Positions 16,117 to 25,692 are shown, numbered from the stretch's first letter. The stretch: 64,000 nt of DNA from Flavobacteriales bacterium (GCA_018335925.1 JAGXRF010000064.1:62001-126000); one strand, 5' to 3'. Numbers and translations: made by a program. The notes: a model not told the origin generated them from the sequence alone.

Positions 16117-18633
16117 TTAGAAAATTTGATACTTTAAAAATAAATTTGGGGTAAGTTTTAGTCCAATAATTTGAACTTCTTCAATTTGATTTTGGTTTAA
16201 TCTATAAAACTGATTAATGACATTTTTGTTATTAGTCAAATTTTGAATAGAAAAACCAACTAACAAGTTACTTTTTGCATTAAAATCAAATTGGTAAGAG
16301 CCTGAAATGTTTAATTGAAAATAATCATTTAAGTTAGATTCATTTGGAAAAGCAAAAGCAATTTCTGGGGTTTCTGGTAAATTAAATACAGGCGAAAGTG
16401 ATAAAATTTCAGTAGTTGGCCTTCCGGAAAACCATTTTCCTCCAACAGAAAATTTTAATTTTTTCCAATCTAAACTACTTGTAAATGTAATAGCATGTTG
16501 AATTTCAAAATTATTTCTAAACTCTGGTGGCACATACCCATCAAATTGATAATCTGTATTGTTGTAGCTATAATTAATCCAATACAAAAAGTTTTTTACC
16601 CTTTTTTGAACTAAAAACTCAAATCCATAAGTGGCATACGACCCATTAATTTTTTGAAATTCTAACTGATTTTGAAATCCTTGAGCAGCACTAGTAATAC
16701 CATTAACTCTTTTGAAAAAAATCTCCGCTGATAACAACCAAGAATTTACTTTATAATCTAAATTAGCCGACTGTTGGTAACTATTTAAAACAGGAAAGTT
16801 AGTTTGATCAGATAACACCCATCGACGTTTTTCTAAACCAAAAAAATCTTGTTGTAAATCAATAACTTGTGATACAAACTGATTTTTAACTTCACCTAAA
16901 GTTGCTATTGAAAATTGATCATCAATTTGATACCTTACATTCCATCTGGGTTCTATAAAAAATTCATTAAATTTTTCAGCATAGTTAATTCTCACTCCTA
17001 AGTTAGTATTCCATCTTAAATTTTGATAACTAATTTCACTTGCCAATGAATGTATATTTTGAACTAATTTTATTGTTCTATCAAAAACTGGAATATTGGT
17101 TTTATCTGAGTTTCTAATTCCAATTTCATTAAATTGATATCCGTATGCAAATGTTAACTTTTCTGAAATCAAGTGTTTATTTTTCCATTTAAAGCCTAAA
17201 TCAAAAATTTGGTTGTTTTGAGTTAAAATCTGTGCATTGTTGATATTTTCATTATAACCTGATTGATCATGCATAGAAAAATGAGTAATCCATTCTGAAG
17301 AAAATTTGGAAGACCACTGGCTTTGCCAAGTAAATGAAGTACCTATATTTTTTTGTAATAACTCGTTATTTTTTACAACAAAAGGTATCATATTTTTATC
17401 CTCTTCAGTAAATATTAAAGAATTATTGAAGTTTACAAAGTCAATATAATATTGATGTTTATTTCCTAGTTTTGATTGAAATTGAACAGTAAAATCGTAA
17501 AAATTAAAATCAGAATCGGTGTTTAACAATACTTTCTGATCGTTTTCTAAATTTAAAATTTCTGTATTTTGAAAAACCCTATCAAAATAACTTTGATAGG
17601 TAAATGAGTTCAAAAAATCTGTATTTGACCTTCTTCCTGAAATGGTTAGCAAACTTTTGTTTTTAAAATTTACTTTAGCAAATATCCCAGATGAAATCAT
17701 ATTAAAATTCAAATTTGCAGCAGAGTTTTCATTAAAACTTTTATGTGAAGAGATATCAACAACACTCGAAACACCTTCGTTTATAAAGGCTGATGTTCCG
17801 TTTTTGTTAATAGAAATGGTGTTAGATAAATTTGGATTAATTGCTGAAAACATTCCAAAAAAATGACCTGTTTGATATAACCTAATATGGTTCCACAAAA
17901 AAAGATTTTGGTCATGCGTACCACCTCTTACATTAATATTCGAAATAGTTTCATCAGAATTAATAAATCCAGGAATTTGATTTAGTGTTTGCAAAACGTC
18001 TAACTCTACAAGTCCGGGTAAAATTCCGAATTTACTCGGTTTTATCTCTACAGTTCCGTCAGCTTTTTTCCTTATTCCTTTAGAAATGTACTCTGTAGCA
18101 ATAACCTCTTGCAATTCTGAAACACGTTCCTTTACAACATAAGTTGTACATAGCTTTTGATTAGATGGTTTTACATTAACTTTCAAGTTTTGAAATGAAA
18201 CATGATTAATGCTTAAAACCAACTGTTGGGTGTTTTTAACAATTATTTCAAAATAACCTTTATTATCTGAAATAGCATATTCTTTTAAATCTGATAACTG
18301 TATGGTTGCATTTTCTATTGGACTATTTTGAGTATCTTTTATATATCCACATATATAAAAAGTAAATTCTTTAGGCTTTATGATAATGATTTTATCAGAA
18401 AAAAAAGTAAATTCTAATTTTGAATTTTGATTTAAAAAATCAATTTTCTCTTTTAAACTCCAGTTAATATTTGGTTGATTTACAAAAACTTGATCGATGT
18501 TTTCTTGTAAATAGTTGAAAGTAATTTGATGTTGTTTTTCTATTTTTTCTAAAACTTCTGATAAGGGAAAATAATTTTGACTTTGCACAAAACTAGAACA
18601 AATTAAAAATGTAAAAAACCAAAATTTTCTCAT
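16117..18633 (-). CDS. TonB-dependent receptor with N-terminal STN signalling domain and carboxypeptidase-regulatory-like domain
   Basis: FPLSEVLEKIEKQHQITFNYLQENI (STN-like), YICGYIKDTQNSPIENATIQL, plug NQIPGFINSDETISNINVRGG, C-terminal barrel. Confidence 0.9.
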   Translation of the reverse strand: MRKFWFFTFLICSSFVQSQNYFPLSEVLEKIEKQHQITFNYLQENIDQVFVNQPNINWSLKEKIDFLNQNSKLEFTFFSDKIIIIKPKEFTFYICGYIKDTQNSPIENATIQLSDLKEYAISDNKGYFEIIVKNTQQLVLSINHVSFQNLKVNVKPSNQKLCTTYVVKERVSELQEVIATEYISKGIRKKADGTVEIKPSKFGILPGLVELDVLQTLNQIPGFINSDETISNINVRGGTHDQNLFLWNHIRLYQTGHFFGMFSAINPNLSNTISINKNGTSAFINEGVSSVVDISSHKSFNENSAANLNFNMISSGIFAKVNFKNKSLLTISGRRSNTDFLNSFTYQSYFDRVFQNTEILNLENDQKVLLNTDSDFNFYDFTVQFQSKLGNKHQYYIDFVNFNNSLIFTEEDKNMIPFVVKNNELLQKNIGTSFTWQSQWSSKFSSEWITHFSMHDQSGYNENINNAQILTQNNQIFDLGFKWKNKHLISEKLTFAYGYQFNEIGIRNSDKTNIPVFDRTIKLVQNIHSLASEISYQNLRWNTNLGVRINYAEKFNEFFIEPRWNVRYQIDDQFSIATLGEVKNQFVSQVIDLQQDFFGLEKRRWVLSDQTNFPVLNSYQQSANLDYKVNSWLLSAEIFFKRVNGITSAAQGFQNQLEFQKINGSYATYGFEFLVQKRVKNFLYWINYSYNNTDYQFDGYVPPEFRNNFEIQHAITFTSSLDWKKLKFSVGGKWFSGRPTTEILSLSPVFNLPETPEIAFAFPNESNLNDYFQLNISGSYQFDFNAKSNLLVGFSIQNLTNNKNVINQFYRLNQNQIEEVQIIGLKLTPNLFLKYQIF

Positions 18634-18671
18634 ATCACAAAAAACAAATATAATAGATTTTTGTGTAGACC

Positions 18672-19559
18672 TTAATTTAACAAATATTGATTATTTGATT
18701 TTTTTAAAACACTAAGCCCCGAAGTTTGTTGTATAATTATTAATGCTTCATTAAAATCATTCATAGGTAAATTTCCATAAAAAGAAACATCTTTTTTGTT
18801 TAGCAAGCTTATATTTTTGTTGTAATGAAAATTTATCTGATTTATTACCTCTGCAAGATTTACATTATTAAAAACAAATTGTTGTTTGCTAAAATCAGTA
18901 TAGTTTTTATTGTTTTCGAAATATAATTTTTTATTGCCAACAAAAGAAACTTTTGCTCCTTTAGTTAAAATTACTTGTTGGTTGTTGTATTGTTTTACTT
19001 GAACTTTTCCTTCCAAACAAGTTACATTAAATTGATTTTGATCGGATTGCACAAAAAATTTTGTCCCCAATACATTTACGCTTCCTGATTTAGTTTTAAC
19101 AGTAAATTTCTCTCCTCTTTTAACTTCAAAGTAAGCATTACCTTTAAGTGAAATTTCTCTATTACTATTCCAAAGTAGTTTTTGGAAATCAGCTTGGGCA
19201 TTTGATAATAAAATCACTTTTGATTGATCTGGCAAATAAAATGCAATAGCTTGATTTGAATTATTTAATACAGATTGATAATTAGTTAGATTAAACACTA
19301 AAAATGCAACCATAAAAAATGCAAAACTTGCGGCTATGCCAATAACTTTGTTAAAATTGTATTTTATAAGTTTAGTCTTTTTGGTTTGTAATATCTCTTG
19401 CAACATTTCGCTATCGGTAATTTGAGGCACGTTTGCCTCAGCTGAAATATTCTTAATATTTTTTAATAATATTATATCTTCTTTTGATTCAAATTGAGCC
19501 AATTCTTGATCTGAAATTTTCCCTTCAAGCCAATCTGACAAATAAGTATCTTTTCTCAT
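18672..19559 (-). CDS. FecR family anti-sigma/regulatory protein
   Basis: One TM, GNAYFEVKRGEKFTVKTKSGSVNVLGTKFFV (FecR), C-terminal DUF4974-like VINQINFHYNKNISL. Confidence 0.93.
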   Translation of the reverse strand: MRKDTYLSDWLEGKISDQELAQFESKEDIILLKNIKNISAEANVPQITDSEMLQEILQTKKTKLIKYNFNKVIGIAASFAFFMVAFLVFNLTNYQSVLNNSNQAIAFYLPDQSKVILLSNAQADFQKLLWNSNREISLKGNAYFEVKRGEKFTVKTKSGSVNVLGTKFFVQSDQNQFNVTCLEGKVQVKQYNNQQVILTKGAKVSFVGNKKLYFENNKNYTDFSKQQFVFNNVNLAEVINQINFHYNKNISLLNKKDVSFYGNLPMNDFNEALIIIQQTSGLSVLKKSNNQYLLN

Positions 19560-19602
19560 ATCCCATTATTTTTTAGTTATAACATTTCAATGCTATAAAA
19601 CC

Positions 19603-20121
19603 CTACTTAAATTCCTTAATATTATTTTTCAATGCTTGTAAAGCACCATGCATTCTTTTTTCTACAGCTTTTACGCTAATCCCCAAAATTTCAGCTATTT
19701 CTGCATACTTTTTATCTTCAATTCTGTGCATTAAAAAGCAAACTCTTTGTGCCTCAGTTAATTGATTTATTGCGTTTTCTAACTTTTGTTTAAAATCAGC
19801 TTCTTGCATTTGAAATTCAGGTGATTCTATAAAAATTGACTGCTTATCCGTTGAGTTTTTGTATTGCAAAACAACTTTTTGATGTTTAATCAAATTTAAT
19901 GTAGTATTGTTTGCTATGGTATAAACATAAGATTTTGCCTTTTCTATGGAAACTTTAGTACAATTTTCCCATAATTTGGTGAATGCTTCTTGTGCAACAT
20001 CATTAGCTTGCTCTGTATCACCAAATTTAAAATATAGAAAATTCCTTAATGGCTTGATATTTTCTTTAAAGAAATTGGTAAAAATTTTTTGATTGCATAG
20101 ATTTGGTAAATCTATATTCAT
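19603..20121 (-). CDS. ECF RNA polymerase sigma-70 factor (FecI-like)
   Basis: Region 2 LRNFLYFKFGDTEQANDVAQEAFTKLW; region 4 LTEAQRVCFLMHRIEDKKYAEIAEILGISVKAVEKRMHGAL. Confidence 0.94.
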   Translation of the reverse strand: MNIDLPNLCNQKIFTNFFKENIKPLRNFLYFKFGDTEQANDVAQEAFTKLWENCTKVSIEKAKSYVYTIANNTTLNLIKHQKVVLQYKNSTDKQSIFIESPEFQMQEADFKQKLENAINQLTEAQRVCFLMHRIEDKKYAEIAEILGISVKAVEKRMHGALQALKNNIKEFK

Positions 20122-20199
20122 ATGTTTTTTTTTGTAAATTTATTAATTAAACCTTAGGGTTTTATTTGTTGTGATTGTTTTATTGTTAAAAAATAAAAA

Positions 20200-21189
20200 A
20201 TGAAAAAACTTTACATTTTATTTTTCATCTTTATTTTCTCCTGCCAAACAGAAGAAAACATATTAGTTGAAGATAATAGTCAAAACATAAAACCTAGTTT
20301 ACCTTTGCACCTTTTTTTAGAAAGGGTAAACCAAAACAACACCTCAGTTGATAATATATTGGATGGTACTAGTGCAATAAAGGTAAAATTACCAGTACAA
20401 ATTACACTTAACAATACAGTTTTAATAGTTAATGATTCCAATGACTATATTTTGGTTGAAAACTTAAAAAACCAATCTGCCTCCGATGACGATATTGTAA
20501 ACTATCAATTCCCGATTACAATTGAATTAAGAAATTATCAAAATATTACAGTTTCTAACCAGTCTCAATTAAATAACATTATTAACAACAATCAAAATAT
20601 CAGTGAAATTAGTTGTATTAATATTCAATTTCCTATTAGTATAAATTTATATAATTCAAACAGTCAAATTGCAAATACTATTGATTTTAGTAACAAAATT
20701 CAGTTAATGAACTTTTTATCAAATGCAAGTAACGATTTAATTTATCAATTAAAATACCCACTTGTTATTATTGATCCAAATACTGTACCTCAAACGGTAA
20801 ATAGTAACCTACAAACTCTTTCTTTAATTGAAAACGCAATAAATATTTGTGGTAATAATGCTGGAAATTTTGATGACTTTGTAACCATTATTACTTCTGG
20901 AAATTGGAAAATTGATTATCTGTTTGAAGATAATGAAAACCAAACAAATGATTTTATTGGATATGCGTTTTCATTTTTATCTAACGGTAGTATTTTAGTT
21001 CAAAAAAACGGTGTTAGTTATAATGGCACTTGGCAATATTATGAAGATAGTGGATCTTACAAGTTTGATATTGAATTTGATGAGGATGATTTTGATGACA
21101 TTGAAGAGGATTGGAATATTATTGAATTTTCAAACAATATAGTTTATTTAAAAGATGGTGATAACTTTTTAACCTTTTCTAAATTATAA
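20200..21189 (+). CDS. Repeat-containing lipoprotein of unknown function, divergent from the sigma/FecR/TBDR operon
   Basis: Lipobox IFIFSCQTE; four periodic segments LPVQITL / FPITIEL / FPISINL / YPLVII; C-terminal lipocalin-like GNWKIDYLFEDNENQTNDF...FSFLSNGSILVQKNGVSYNGTW. Confidence 0.8.
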   Translation: MKKLYILFFIFIFSCQTEENILVEDNSQNIKPSLPLHLFLERVNQNNTSVDNILDGTSAIKVKLPVQITLNNTVLIVNDSNDYILVENLKNQSASDDDIVNYQFPITIELRNYQNITVSNQSQLNNIINNNQNISEISCINIQFPISINLYNSNSQIANTIDFSNKIQLMNFLSNASNDLIYQLKYPLVIIDPNTVPQTVNSNLQTLSLIENAINICGNNAGNFDDFVTIITSGNWKIDYLFEDNENQTNDFIGYAFSFLSNGSILVQKNGVSYNGTWQYYEDSGSYKFDIEFDEDDFDDIEEDWNIIEFSNNIVYLKDGDNFLTFSKL

Positions 21190-21299
21190 ACTACTGATAA
21201 TAAGTTAAAATAAAACTCTAATTCTAAAAAAAAATAGAGGTTTTTTGTAGGGTTTTGGACGGTTTAATTGTTTTATATAAAACATTTAAACGAATAAAT

Positions 21300-21773
21300 A
21301 TGAATAAGTATATCAGTTTGTTTTTAATTAACTTGCTTTTTATTTGTTGCACACCTAATGAAACTAATAATCAAAATTTAAAACCTCTTAAAAGCTATCA
21401 ATTTAATATTTCAGAGCTTGAATTTTATAATGAAATTAATCAATTCAGATCCTCATTAAATCTAGCAATTTTAACTCTTGATGAACATATTTCAGCCGTT
21501 TCAGAGGATCATAACAATTTTATGATAGAGCAAAATAAATTAACACATCATAATTTTTTAAAAAGATCTCAACACTTAAAAGAAACCTTGAATGTTAGCC
21601 ATGTTTCAGAAAACTTAGCTTTTAATATTAATTCAACCTATGCGGTACTTAATGCTTGGATTAACAGCGAAAATCACTTTAAAAACTTAACTGGAAAATA
21701 CAATAAAATCGGTATATCTATTAGATTCAACACAGAAAATAAGCCGTTTTATACAGTAATTTTCACAAGATAA
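21300..21773 (+). CDS. CAP (SCP/PR-1) domain lipoprotein
   Basis: Lipobox LLFICCTPN; EINQFRSSLNLAILTLDEHISAVSEDHNNFM, SENLAFN, AWINSENHFKNL. Confidence 0.85.
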   Translation: MNKYISLFLINLLFICCTPNETNNQNLKPLKSYQFNISELEFYNEINQFRSSLNLAILTLDEHISAVSEDHNNFMIEQNKLTHHNFLKRSQHLKETLNVSHVSENLAFNINSTYAVLNAWINSENHFKNLTGKYNKIGISIRFNTENKPFYTVIFTR

Positions 21774-24275: not shown

Positions 24276-24758
24276 TTATTTTTTAACAAAAATTGCTGTG
24301 CAATAAGGTTTGTTGTCAGAACTATAAGTAACGGAAACTCCTATGTGAGTAAATTCTCCCAATAATGTTTGTTGGTGTAAGTTGCTTCTTATCCACGCAT
24401 TAACAATAGCGTTGGCACTTTTAATGTTATAAGCAAGATTTTCAGAAACTTCTTTAGCACCAAAACTTGATTTAATTGTTTGTGCTCTTTGAGAAAAATT
24501 GTCGTGACTAAATCTATTATTCTCTATCATGTACCAGTTATGCTCTTCAGAAATGCTAGAAATATGAGCTACTAACTCGATGGGAGGTAGGTTATTTAAA
24601 ATTCTATAATCATTTATTTTTTCAAAAATTTGATATTCTTTCTCTGTAAAATTATAATCTTTTAGTTGTATTTTAGAGGATTCAATTGATTCCTCTGAGC
24701 TACAACTTACAAGCATAAAAATTCCGTATACCATTGGTATTAATAGGTTAAGTCTCAT
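24276..24758 (-). CDS. CAP (SCP/PR-1) domain lipoprotein, paralogous to 21300-21773
   Basis: Lipobox FMLVSCSSE; KINDYRILNNLPPIELVAHISSISEEHNWYMI, SENLAYN, AWIRS. Confidence 0.87.
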   Translation of the reverse strand: MRLNLLIPMVYGIFMLVSCSSEESIESSKIQLKDYNFTEKEYQIFEKINDYRILNNLPPIELVAHISSISEEHNWYMIENNRFSHDNFSQRAQTIKSSFGAKEVSENLAYNIKSANAIVNAWIRSNLHQQTLLGEFTHIGVSVTYSSDNKPYCTAIFVKK

Positions 24759-24999
24759 TTTTTTTTTTTTAGTTTTTAGTTAAAAATCGTTTGGGCAAAA
24801 AGTACTTTTTAATAAAAACAGCTGTTTGGGGTATTTGAAATGAATTACGTTAATTTTTATTTCTTGTTTTTTTTAGAAATAAATTTTTTGTTTTTTTTAT
24901 GATTTAGGATGTTTTAATTTTTTTTCAAAAAAAAATTTAACGATGGTAGGGTAAATGGTTTTAATGTTGTTTTATGAGTATAACTTTAATATCTATATC

Positions 25000-25692
25000 A
25001 TGAAAACATTTAAAATTTTAGTAGGATTATTTTTAGTAGTGGGCTTGGTTTCTTGTTCAAATAATGACGAAGCTGATACACAACAAAAAAATTTAAGAAT
25101 CAATGCAAAGTCAACTTTTTCAGGGTTAAGTGGCAAATCAGCAAATCAATCTTTTGCAACAGGGGTTTTATTGGAATCTTTTAAAATTAACATTAAAGAA
25201 ATTGAATTTGAGACATCAGAAGATATTTATGGGGATGATGAGGAGTTTGAATTAAAAGGACCTTTTGAATTGAATTTACTAAATACACAACAAACTGTAG
25301 TAGAAGTAAATGTGCCTAACGGAGTTTATGAAGAAGTGAAATTTAAAATGGACAAAAACAAAAAGTCTACTAGCAGTATGTTTAACAAGTCCATTGAAAT
25401 AAAAGGTACTATTAATGGGGTTCCGTTTATTTTTTGGCATAATGCTGAACAAGAATTTGAAATTGATTACGAAGATATAGGCCAAAGTTTAGTGATTAAT
25501 AACAACTCCGCAGTGATTAGCTTTGATTTTGATTTGAATTCTGTAATTGCTAGTGTAAACTTGACCAATGCAACAGATAATAACAATGATGGTTTAATTG
25601 AAATTAGTCCAATGGATACTGATGGGAACAATGCATTGGCTAATTTGATTATTTTAAAAATAGAACAATACACTGATTTACTAGATGACTAG
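25000..25692 (+). CDS. Lipoprotein, DUF4382-like
   Basis: MKTFKILVGLFLVVGLVSCSNN lipobox; ESFKINIKEIEFE...FELNLLNTQQTVVEVNVPNGVYEEVKFKM resembles DUF4382. Confidence 0.6.
   Translation: MKTFKILVGLFLVVGLVSCSNNDEADTQQKNLRINAKSTFSGLSGKSANQSFATGVLLESFKINIKEIEFETSEDIYGDDEEFELKGPFELNLLNTQQTVVEVNVPNGVYEEVKFKMDKNKKSTSSMFNKSIEIKGTINGVPFIFWHNAEQEFEIDYEDIGQSLVINNNSAVISFDFDLNSVIASVNLTNATDNNNDGLIEISPMDTDGNNALANLIILKIEQYTDLLDD

Follow-up and report, generated by a model that had tools for sequence, protein, structure and literature searches.

A candidate FecI/FecR/FecA-type cell-surface signalling module with a conserved non-SusD lipoprotein in Flavobacteriaceae

Introduction

Cell-surface signalling systems such as FecI/FecR/FecA, FoxI/FoxR/FoxA and FpvI/FpvR/FpvA combine an extracytoplasmic function (ECF) sigma factor, a FecR-type regulator and a TonB-dependent receptor with signalling domain, plug and barrel. 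In these relatives the FecR-type protein is touched by the signalling domain of the receptor, and ligand binding leads to FecR processing, upon which the sigma factor acts (PMC9249621, PMC11637429); in Escherichia coli, fecIR is under sigma-70 and fecA under FecI (PMC9249621). Sigma/anti-sigma pairs and a surface lipoprotein also stand beside TonB-dependent receptors in the SusC/SusD loci of Bacteroidetes, and for B12 there are TonB-dependent transporters whose lipoprotein lid is not a SusD (PMC10404256). Here we describe a FecI/FecR/FecA-type (FecIRA-type) locus in a 64,000-nucleotide stretch (the window) of the 3.58 Mb genome of a Flavobacteriales bacterium (GCA_018335925.1, JAGXRF010000064.1:62001-126000). 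Genes for a sigma factor, FecR and a receptor lie divergent from the gene for a lipoprotein designated LIPO (Table 1). Based on comparative sequence analysis, we consider it likely that the locus encodes a cell-surface signalling module in which a positive loop raises both an outer-membrane transducer and the non-SusD surface lipoprotein dedicated to it.

ECF sigma regulons are hard to predict in Bacteroidota, and one comparative study describes ECF-controlled promoters as challenging to predict unless transcription starts have been mapped (PMC3878776). The module combines one FecR per genome (a single FecR was found in this one) with a local regulon and a promoter code of fixed spacing, and is a clean case for the joint testing of sigma factor, anti-sigma factor, receptor, lipoprotein and targets. 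No description of it was found in the literature searched.

Results and discussion

Comparison with described systems

The sigma protein has ECF regions 2 and 4 (TIGR02937 is above its NCBIfam cut-off; TIGR02985, at 118.9 bits, is slightly under the cut-off of 126.4), FecR carries both FecR and C-terminal domains, and the receptor has the N-terminal signalling domain, plug and barrel of FecIRA-type receptors by AlphaFold2 and Foldseek. An initial sequence-only reading of the locus had proposed five genes, and the open reading frames (ORFs) agree with all five; its domain calls are borne out by Pfam, which gives Sigma70_r2/r4_2, FecR plus FecR_C, and CAP above their cut-offs. The STN-type domain that it assigned to the receptor is supported by the predicted structure (pLDDT 86), in which residues 24-87 form a compact alpha/beta domain, and by a fold match to full-length FpvA, but not by Pfam, which calls no STN in the window receptor. 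Pfam places CarboxypepD_reg_2 above its cut-off and Plug slightly under it (22.9 vs. 23.9 bits). The receptor family is coherent, with 49% mean column identity over 36 aligned homologues, among which Pfam finds Plug in 35, FecR_C in 24 and STN in 5; an extra beta domain between the N-terminal domain and the plug is absent in some members.

As in the described systems, receptor expression would be under the sigma factor, here through a putative promoter that the sigma factor presumably recognizes. The module differs from these systems in its divergent lipoprotein, apparently dedicated and under the same sigma factor, and in a promoter that lies before fecR and covers fecR and the receptor gene together. 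It also differs in having no adjacent transport genes: the window ORFs read beside it include neither an ATP-binding cassette (ABC) transporter nor an iron or B12 gene.

This last difference bears on a rival explanation, in which the locus serves an ordinary nutrient receptor that imports an iron complex or similar compound with standard FecA-type signalling, LIPO being a BtuG- or SusD-like lid that aids uptake. The best folds for the receptor are indeed FepA/PfeA, FpvA at full length (signalling domain included), FecA and BtuB, nearest to iron-siderophore and B12 receptors, and the B12 lids (PMC10404256) offer a precedent. However, the lack of such genes among the ORFs read and a predicted LIPO fold that is neither propeller nor SusD argue against this explanation, which we regard as unlikely. 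BtuB-BtuG resembles the proposed pairing in that a surface lipoprotein other than SusD serves a single TonB receptor (PMC10404256), but neither the sequence nor the predicted fold of LIPO resembles BtuG, which is absent from both sets of matches, and BtuBG lacks such a FecR/sigma arm.

The SusC/SusD loci share with the module, besides their gene types, a CarboxypepD_reg-like receptor domain in many members. The module nevertheless has no SusD, and its receptor barrel is nearer FepA/FecA than SusC, which first appears at rank 50 of the Foldseek matches; PDB profile matches to SusC/RagA are confined to profile positions ~101-194, i.e., to the extra N-terminal domain alone. Receptor fold and missing SusD together led us to reject a SusC/SusD locus. 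That a SusD-like partner is absent had been noticed at the outset, and none was seen among the neighbouring proteins scanned. LIPO itself was rejected as a SusD-family protein, having no Pfam match and a different predicted fold (see below). TonB signalling in the phylum thus need not use SusD.

Conservation of the module

LIPO homologues occur in 207 of 301 genomes of the family, although some matches perhaps cover the lipocalin-like part only. Among 39 loci fetched by LIPO, 37 have it divergent from the sigma gene, followed by FecR and the receptor; one locus (L063) has its receptor divided between two ORFs. A reverse search from the receptor recovered the full arrangement in 64 of the 80 best relatives from named genomes, and several of the remaining 16 lie at contig ends or have LIPO slightly more distant. 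The receptor relatives with adjacent LIPO include Flavobacterium, Aquimarina, Psychroflexus, Planktosalinus and Aequorivita, as well as metagenome-assembled genomes labelled Fulvivirga and Cyclobacteriaceae. A phylum-wide profile search with the LIPO N-terminal domain (N-domain) alone gave matches in 43 of 393 genomes, with a divergent sigma gene in all 30 loci read, one of them from another family of the class. The three locus sets partly overlap, so the counts are not fully independent. The adjacency of LIPO homologues to sigma/FecR/receptor trios, named as a check in the sequence-only reading, holds in both directions and phylum-wide, and on this comparison the sigma/FecR/receptor/LIPO core is not a chance neighbourhood. 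In many loci, as in the window, the module lies between argS and ffh/folD, an indication that the locus is ancestral.

The sequence-only reading had placed two divergent lipoproteins in the module, of which LIPO stands and the CAP-domain lipoprotein does not. The latter has a putative promoter in the window, but the other fetched loci yielded no CAP homologue; it was rejected on this ground as a conserved part, and we classify it from sequence as a local regulon member. A roughly 160-aa lipocalin-like lipoprotein follows LIPO in many loci (35 found), and the CAP lipoprotein takes that place in the window.

A shared promoter element

A promoter-like element, (G)TAGGGT-N15-TGTTnTA, precedes LIPO, fecR-receptor (where the sigma gene ends in the element's TAG as its stop codon), the CAP gene and a gene for a DUF4382 lipoprotein 4 kb away. 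Neither this element nor the fourth candidate target gene figured in the sequence-only reading. The window holds 4 matches to TAGGGT-N15-TGTTnTA vs. 0.06 expected from shuffles, and these are the only exact matches in the whole genome.

The intergenic sequence between LIPO and the sigma gene contains GTAGGGT...TGTTTTA in most loci. When spacers of 10 to 21 bases were counted over 120 related loci (2.26 Mb), the 15-base spacer occurred in 153 sites, spacers of 13 and 18 in one site each and all other lengths in none. Spacer-15 sites fall before fecR (67) and before LIPO (52); by the strict pattern the element precedes fecR in 65 of the 120 loci, most others having 1-2 changes. Across 121 family genomes there are 167 sites vs. 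26 with a reversed control pattern, and sites are present in 56 of 97 genomes with a LIPO match compared to 2 of 24 without (p = 8e-6).

The element varies by lineage, with AGGGT, AGGAA or AGGAG at -35 and TGTT, TGTC or GGTT at -10. Within a locus, the promoters of LIPO and fecR share the variable -35 base in 94 of 99 cases (best of 2000 shuffles, 74) and the -10 tetramer in 93 of 99 (best of 2000 shuffles, 82). That the two promoters nearly always carry the same variant, albeit through few independent changes, would be expected if the sigma factor encoded between them reads both; we infer such sigma control, which is well supported by comparison. The early suggestion that the sigma factor acts on the LIPO promoter gains support as well, as locus after locus has the element before both LIPO and fecR, with concerted variation.

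The element could instead belong to another sigma factor, its position beside the module's sigma gene being historical: the sigma factors of the genome are catalogued in part only, and paralogous trios share a motif class in some genomes. Yet the element flanks the module's sigma gene in nearly all loci, its two copies vary in concert, and few genomes that lack LIPO have it. The two sigma positions that share most information with the -35 base (H158 and Y139) also lie in the region 4.2 helix-turn-helix, though few independent events are involved. We therefore hold recognition by another sigma factor to be very improbable. Covariation of sigma residues with the -35 base was dropped as proof of recognition, as the tree shows no more than ~3 changes of -35 class, and no significance is claimed for it.

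The ECF-type motif SM6 in the promoter map of Flavobacterium psychrophilum is no counterpart of the element, having a CGT -10 box (PMC9723704), and the phosphate-starvation FecR genes of Flavobacterium johnsoniae (PMC8115612) are unlinked to the module locus.

Two loci (L035, L040) carry two complete trios in tandem, with -35 classes AGGGT and AGGAA and an own LIPO each; they constitute a natural test of promoter insulation.

The LIPO lipoprotein

LIPO has no Pfam or NCBIfam match. Its AlphaFold2 model (pLDDT 89) consists of four beta-beta-alpha (bba) repeats, equivalent to two tandem bbabba units, in the N-domain (~45-219) and a C-terminal lipocalin-like domain (C-domain, ~226-329), so that its initial description as a repeat lipoprotein was right. 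One proline per repeat is shared by 90% or more of the homologues. In a census of 119 homologues, 118 have a single N-domain while lipocalin-like modules range from 0 to 4 (none in 17), which by sequence makes the N-domain the constant part of LIPO; its conservation (48%) is level with that of the receptor. Cysteines 59 and 130 are both present in 81 homologues, both absent in 35 and single in 2, and Cys139 pairs less strictly with 213 or 217. Since the cysteine pairs co-vary, the N-domain is suggested to comprise two tandem bbabba units with one closing disulphide apiece; in the window, LIPO retains the second pair only. PB1, a bbabba fold, gave weak matches for 9 of 48 N-domains.

The C-domain matches the Bacteroides lipocalin-like lipoproteins 4qrl and 4zgf (DUF4847) in predicted fold (best E 4e-3, probability 1.00, Foldseek) and 4zgf by profile (E 3e-4), with no Pfam match for a lipocalin-like domain. 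Those lipoproteins differ in being without the tandem bbabba N-domain, LIPO's invariant part. The lipid site, Cys15, is followed by an acidic stretch (CQTEEN in the window) near the surface-lipoprotein export signal (LES) consensus QKDDE (PMC5080379); homologues have Q at +2 in 90 of 110 and an acid at +4 in 92%. This stretch is suggestive of surface exposure for LIPO, but a LES-like pattern also occurs in 29 of 83 background lipoproteins and is not specific to the family. By these comparisons LIPO forms an unclassified lipoprotein family, nearly always inherited with one receptor family.

Proposed mechanism

In the signalling module that we favour, LIPO plus the receptor would capture a ligand at the cell surface, and the receptor would relay the signal through its plug and N-terminal signalling domain to periplasmic FecR. 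FecR would then be processed and the sigma factor released; this step, like ligand gating, is modelled on the known systems. The sigma factor would read the TAGGGT-N15-TGTTnTA promoters on either side of its own gene, raising FecR-receptor and LIPO in a positive loop along with a small number of other surface lipoproteins (CAP and DUF4382 in the window). The least certain part is a physical cooperation of LIPO with the receptor, as opposed to a pure output role, and its role as a lid or capture protein, for which BtuBG is the model (PMC10404256), is the weakest step.

Several observations weigh against the proposal. Locus L050 has 2 kb separating LIPO and the sigma gene, and L058 is without FecR and receptor. 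The receptor tree shows ~3 changes of -35 class and ~2 of -10 class, i.e., few independent events behind the concerted variation. With 1 mismatch allowed, the genome-wide count (27) does not exceed the control (37); weaker regulon members are therefore not callable, and no wider regulon is claimed in the source genome. Finally, other lipoproteins share the promoter, and LIPO may be just the most constant output.

This last point leads to the main rival, that the receptor alone senses a small molecule and that LIPO is one of several sigma-driven surface lipoproteins that act elsewhere, e.g., in binding, adhesion or envelope protection. In other genomes the element precedes genes for DUF4382, OB-fold (tRNA_anti-like), Lipoprotein_15, YHYH, VTC and type IX secretion system (T9SS)-sorted proteins, for a cytochrome-like lipoprotein, Tat-type DGYY-repeat lipoproteins and a 55-aa membrane protein. 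These products are mostly extracytoplasmic; about 15% of such sites would be due to chance by the control, and some may belong to paralogous sigma factors. LIPO, CAP, DUF4382 and the lipocalin-like lipoproteins could accordingly be one sigma-driven set, in keeping with the unrelated surface proteins preceded by the element here and elsewhere and with the variable number of C-terminal modules in LIPO. However, LIPO alone is constant whereas other outputs vary by genome, and its conserved N-domain is almost without exception encoded next to the trio. We judge a pure output role somewhat improbable, though less so than a nutrient lid.

If LIPO and the receptor do work together, the module may even represent an undescribed class of lipoprotein-gated signalling, a proposal that we put forward tentatively and at slightly less than even confidence. 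The Cys-paired bbabba N-domain would be a ligand-capturing or signal-gating cap for a FecA-class transducer across Flavobacteriaceae and some other Bacteroidota families, and exchangeable lipocalin-like modules would set what is sensed.

Features of the locus and further observations

Table 1. Genes and putative promoter elements of the locus, in window coordinates.
Feature	Position	Strand	Length	Basis or sequence
TonB-dependent receptor/transducer	16117..18633	-	838 aa	Pfam, AlphaFold2, Foldseek; signalling (STN-like) domain ~24-87, CarboxypepD_reg-like ~92-170, plug, 22-strand-type barrel
FecR-type anti-sigma/sigma regulator	18672..19559	-	295 aa	PF04773 61.3 bits, PF16344 30.9 bits, both above cut-off
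ECF (FecI-like) sigma factor	19603..20121	-	172 aa	PF04542 40.0 bits, PF08281 66.0 bits, both above cut-off
LIPO lipoprotein	20200..21189	+	329 aa	AlphaFold2, Foldseek, domain census, conserved prolines
CAP-domain lipoprotein	21300..21773	+	157 aa	PF00188 46 bits (cut-off 21.1)
DUF4382 lipoprotein	25000..25692	+	230 aa	PF14321 27.6 bits (cut-off 25)
Putative sigma-dependent promoter, fecR-receptor	19578..19605	-		TAGGGT-N15-TGTTATA
Putative sigma-dependent promoter, LIPO	20155..20182	+		TAGGGT-N15-TGTTTTA
Putative sigma-dependent promoter, CAP lipoprotein gene	21248..21275	+		TAGGGT-N15-TGTTTTA
Putative sigma-dependent promoter, DUF4382 lipoprotein gene	24947..24974	+		TAGGGT-N15-TGTTTTA

The DUF4382 gene starts at 25000, not at 24955. 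A second CAP-domain lipoprotein gene (24276-24758), its product 43% identical to that of 21300-21773, forms with it a pair that flanks folD/ffh; no promoter element precedes this second gene, and only the first of the two paralogues has one.

A near-identical match, GTAGGGTTCCGGCCCGTTC[AG]GTTGTTATA, lies within a reading frame of 280-291 codons in several genomes (L211, L232, L256) and is probably a conserved coding stretch, not a promoter.

In several Flavobacterium species, Lipoprotein_15 and OB-fold genes lie downstream of the receptor gene with an own copy of the element each (L121-L144, L158, L180, L182). The Tat-type lipoproteins preceded by the element (L196, L215, L225, L269) have long DGYY repeats, with a lipocalin-like end in L269. 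A predicted membrane protein of 55-61 aa (MDVINEII...IQFGY type, no Pfam match) follows the element in eight genomes (L221, L222, L229, L231, L242, L258, L263, L266); in L222 a second copy is adjacent and an OmpA-like lipoprotein lies upstream.

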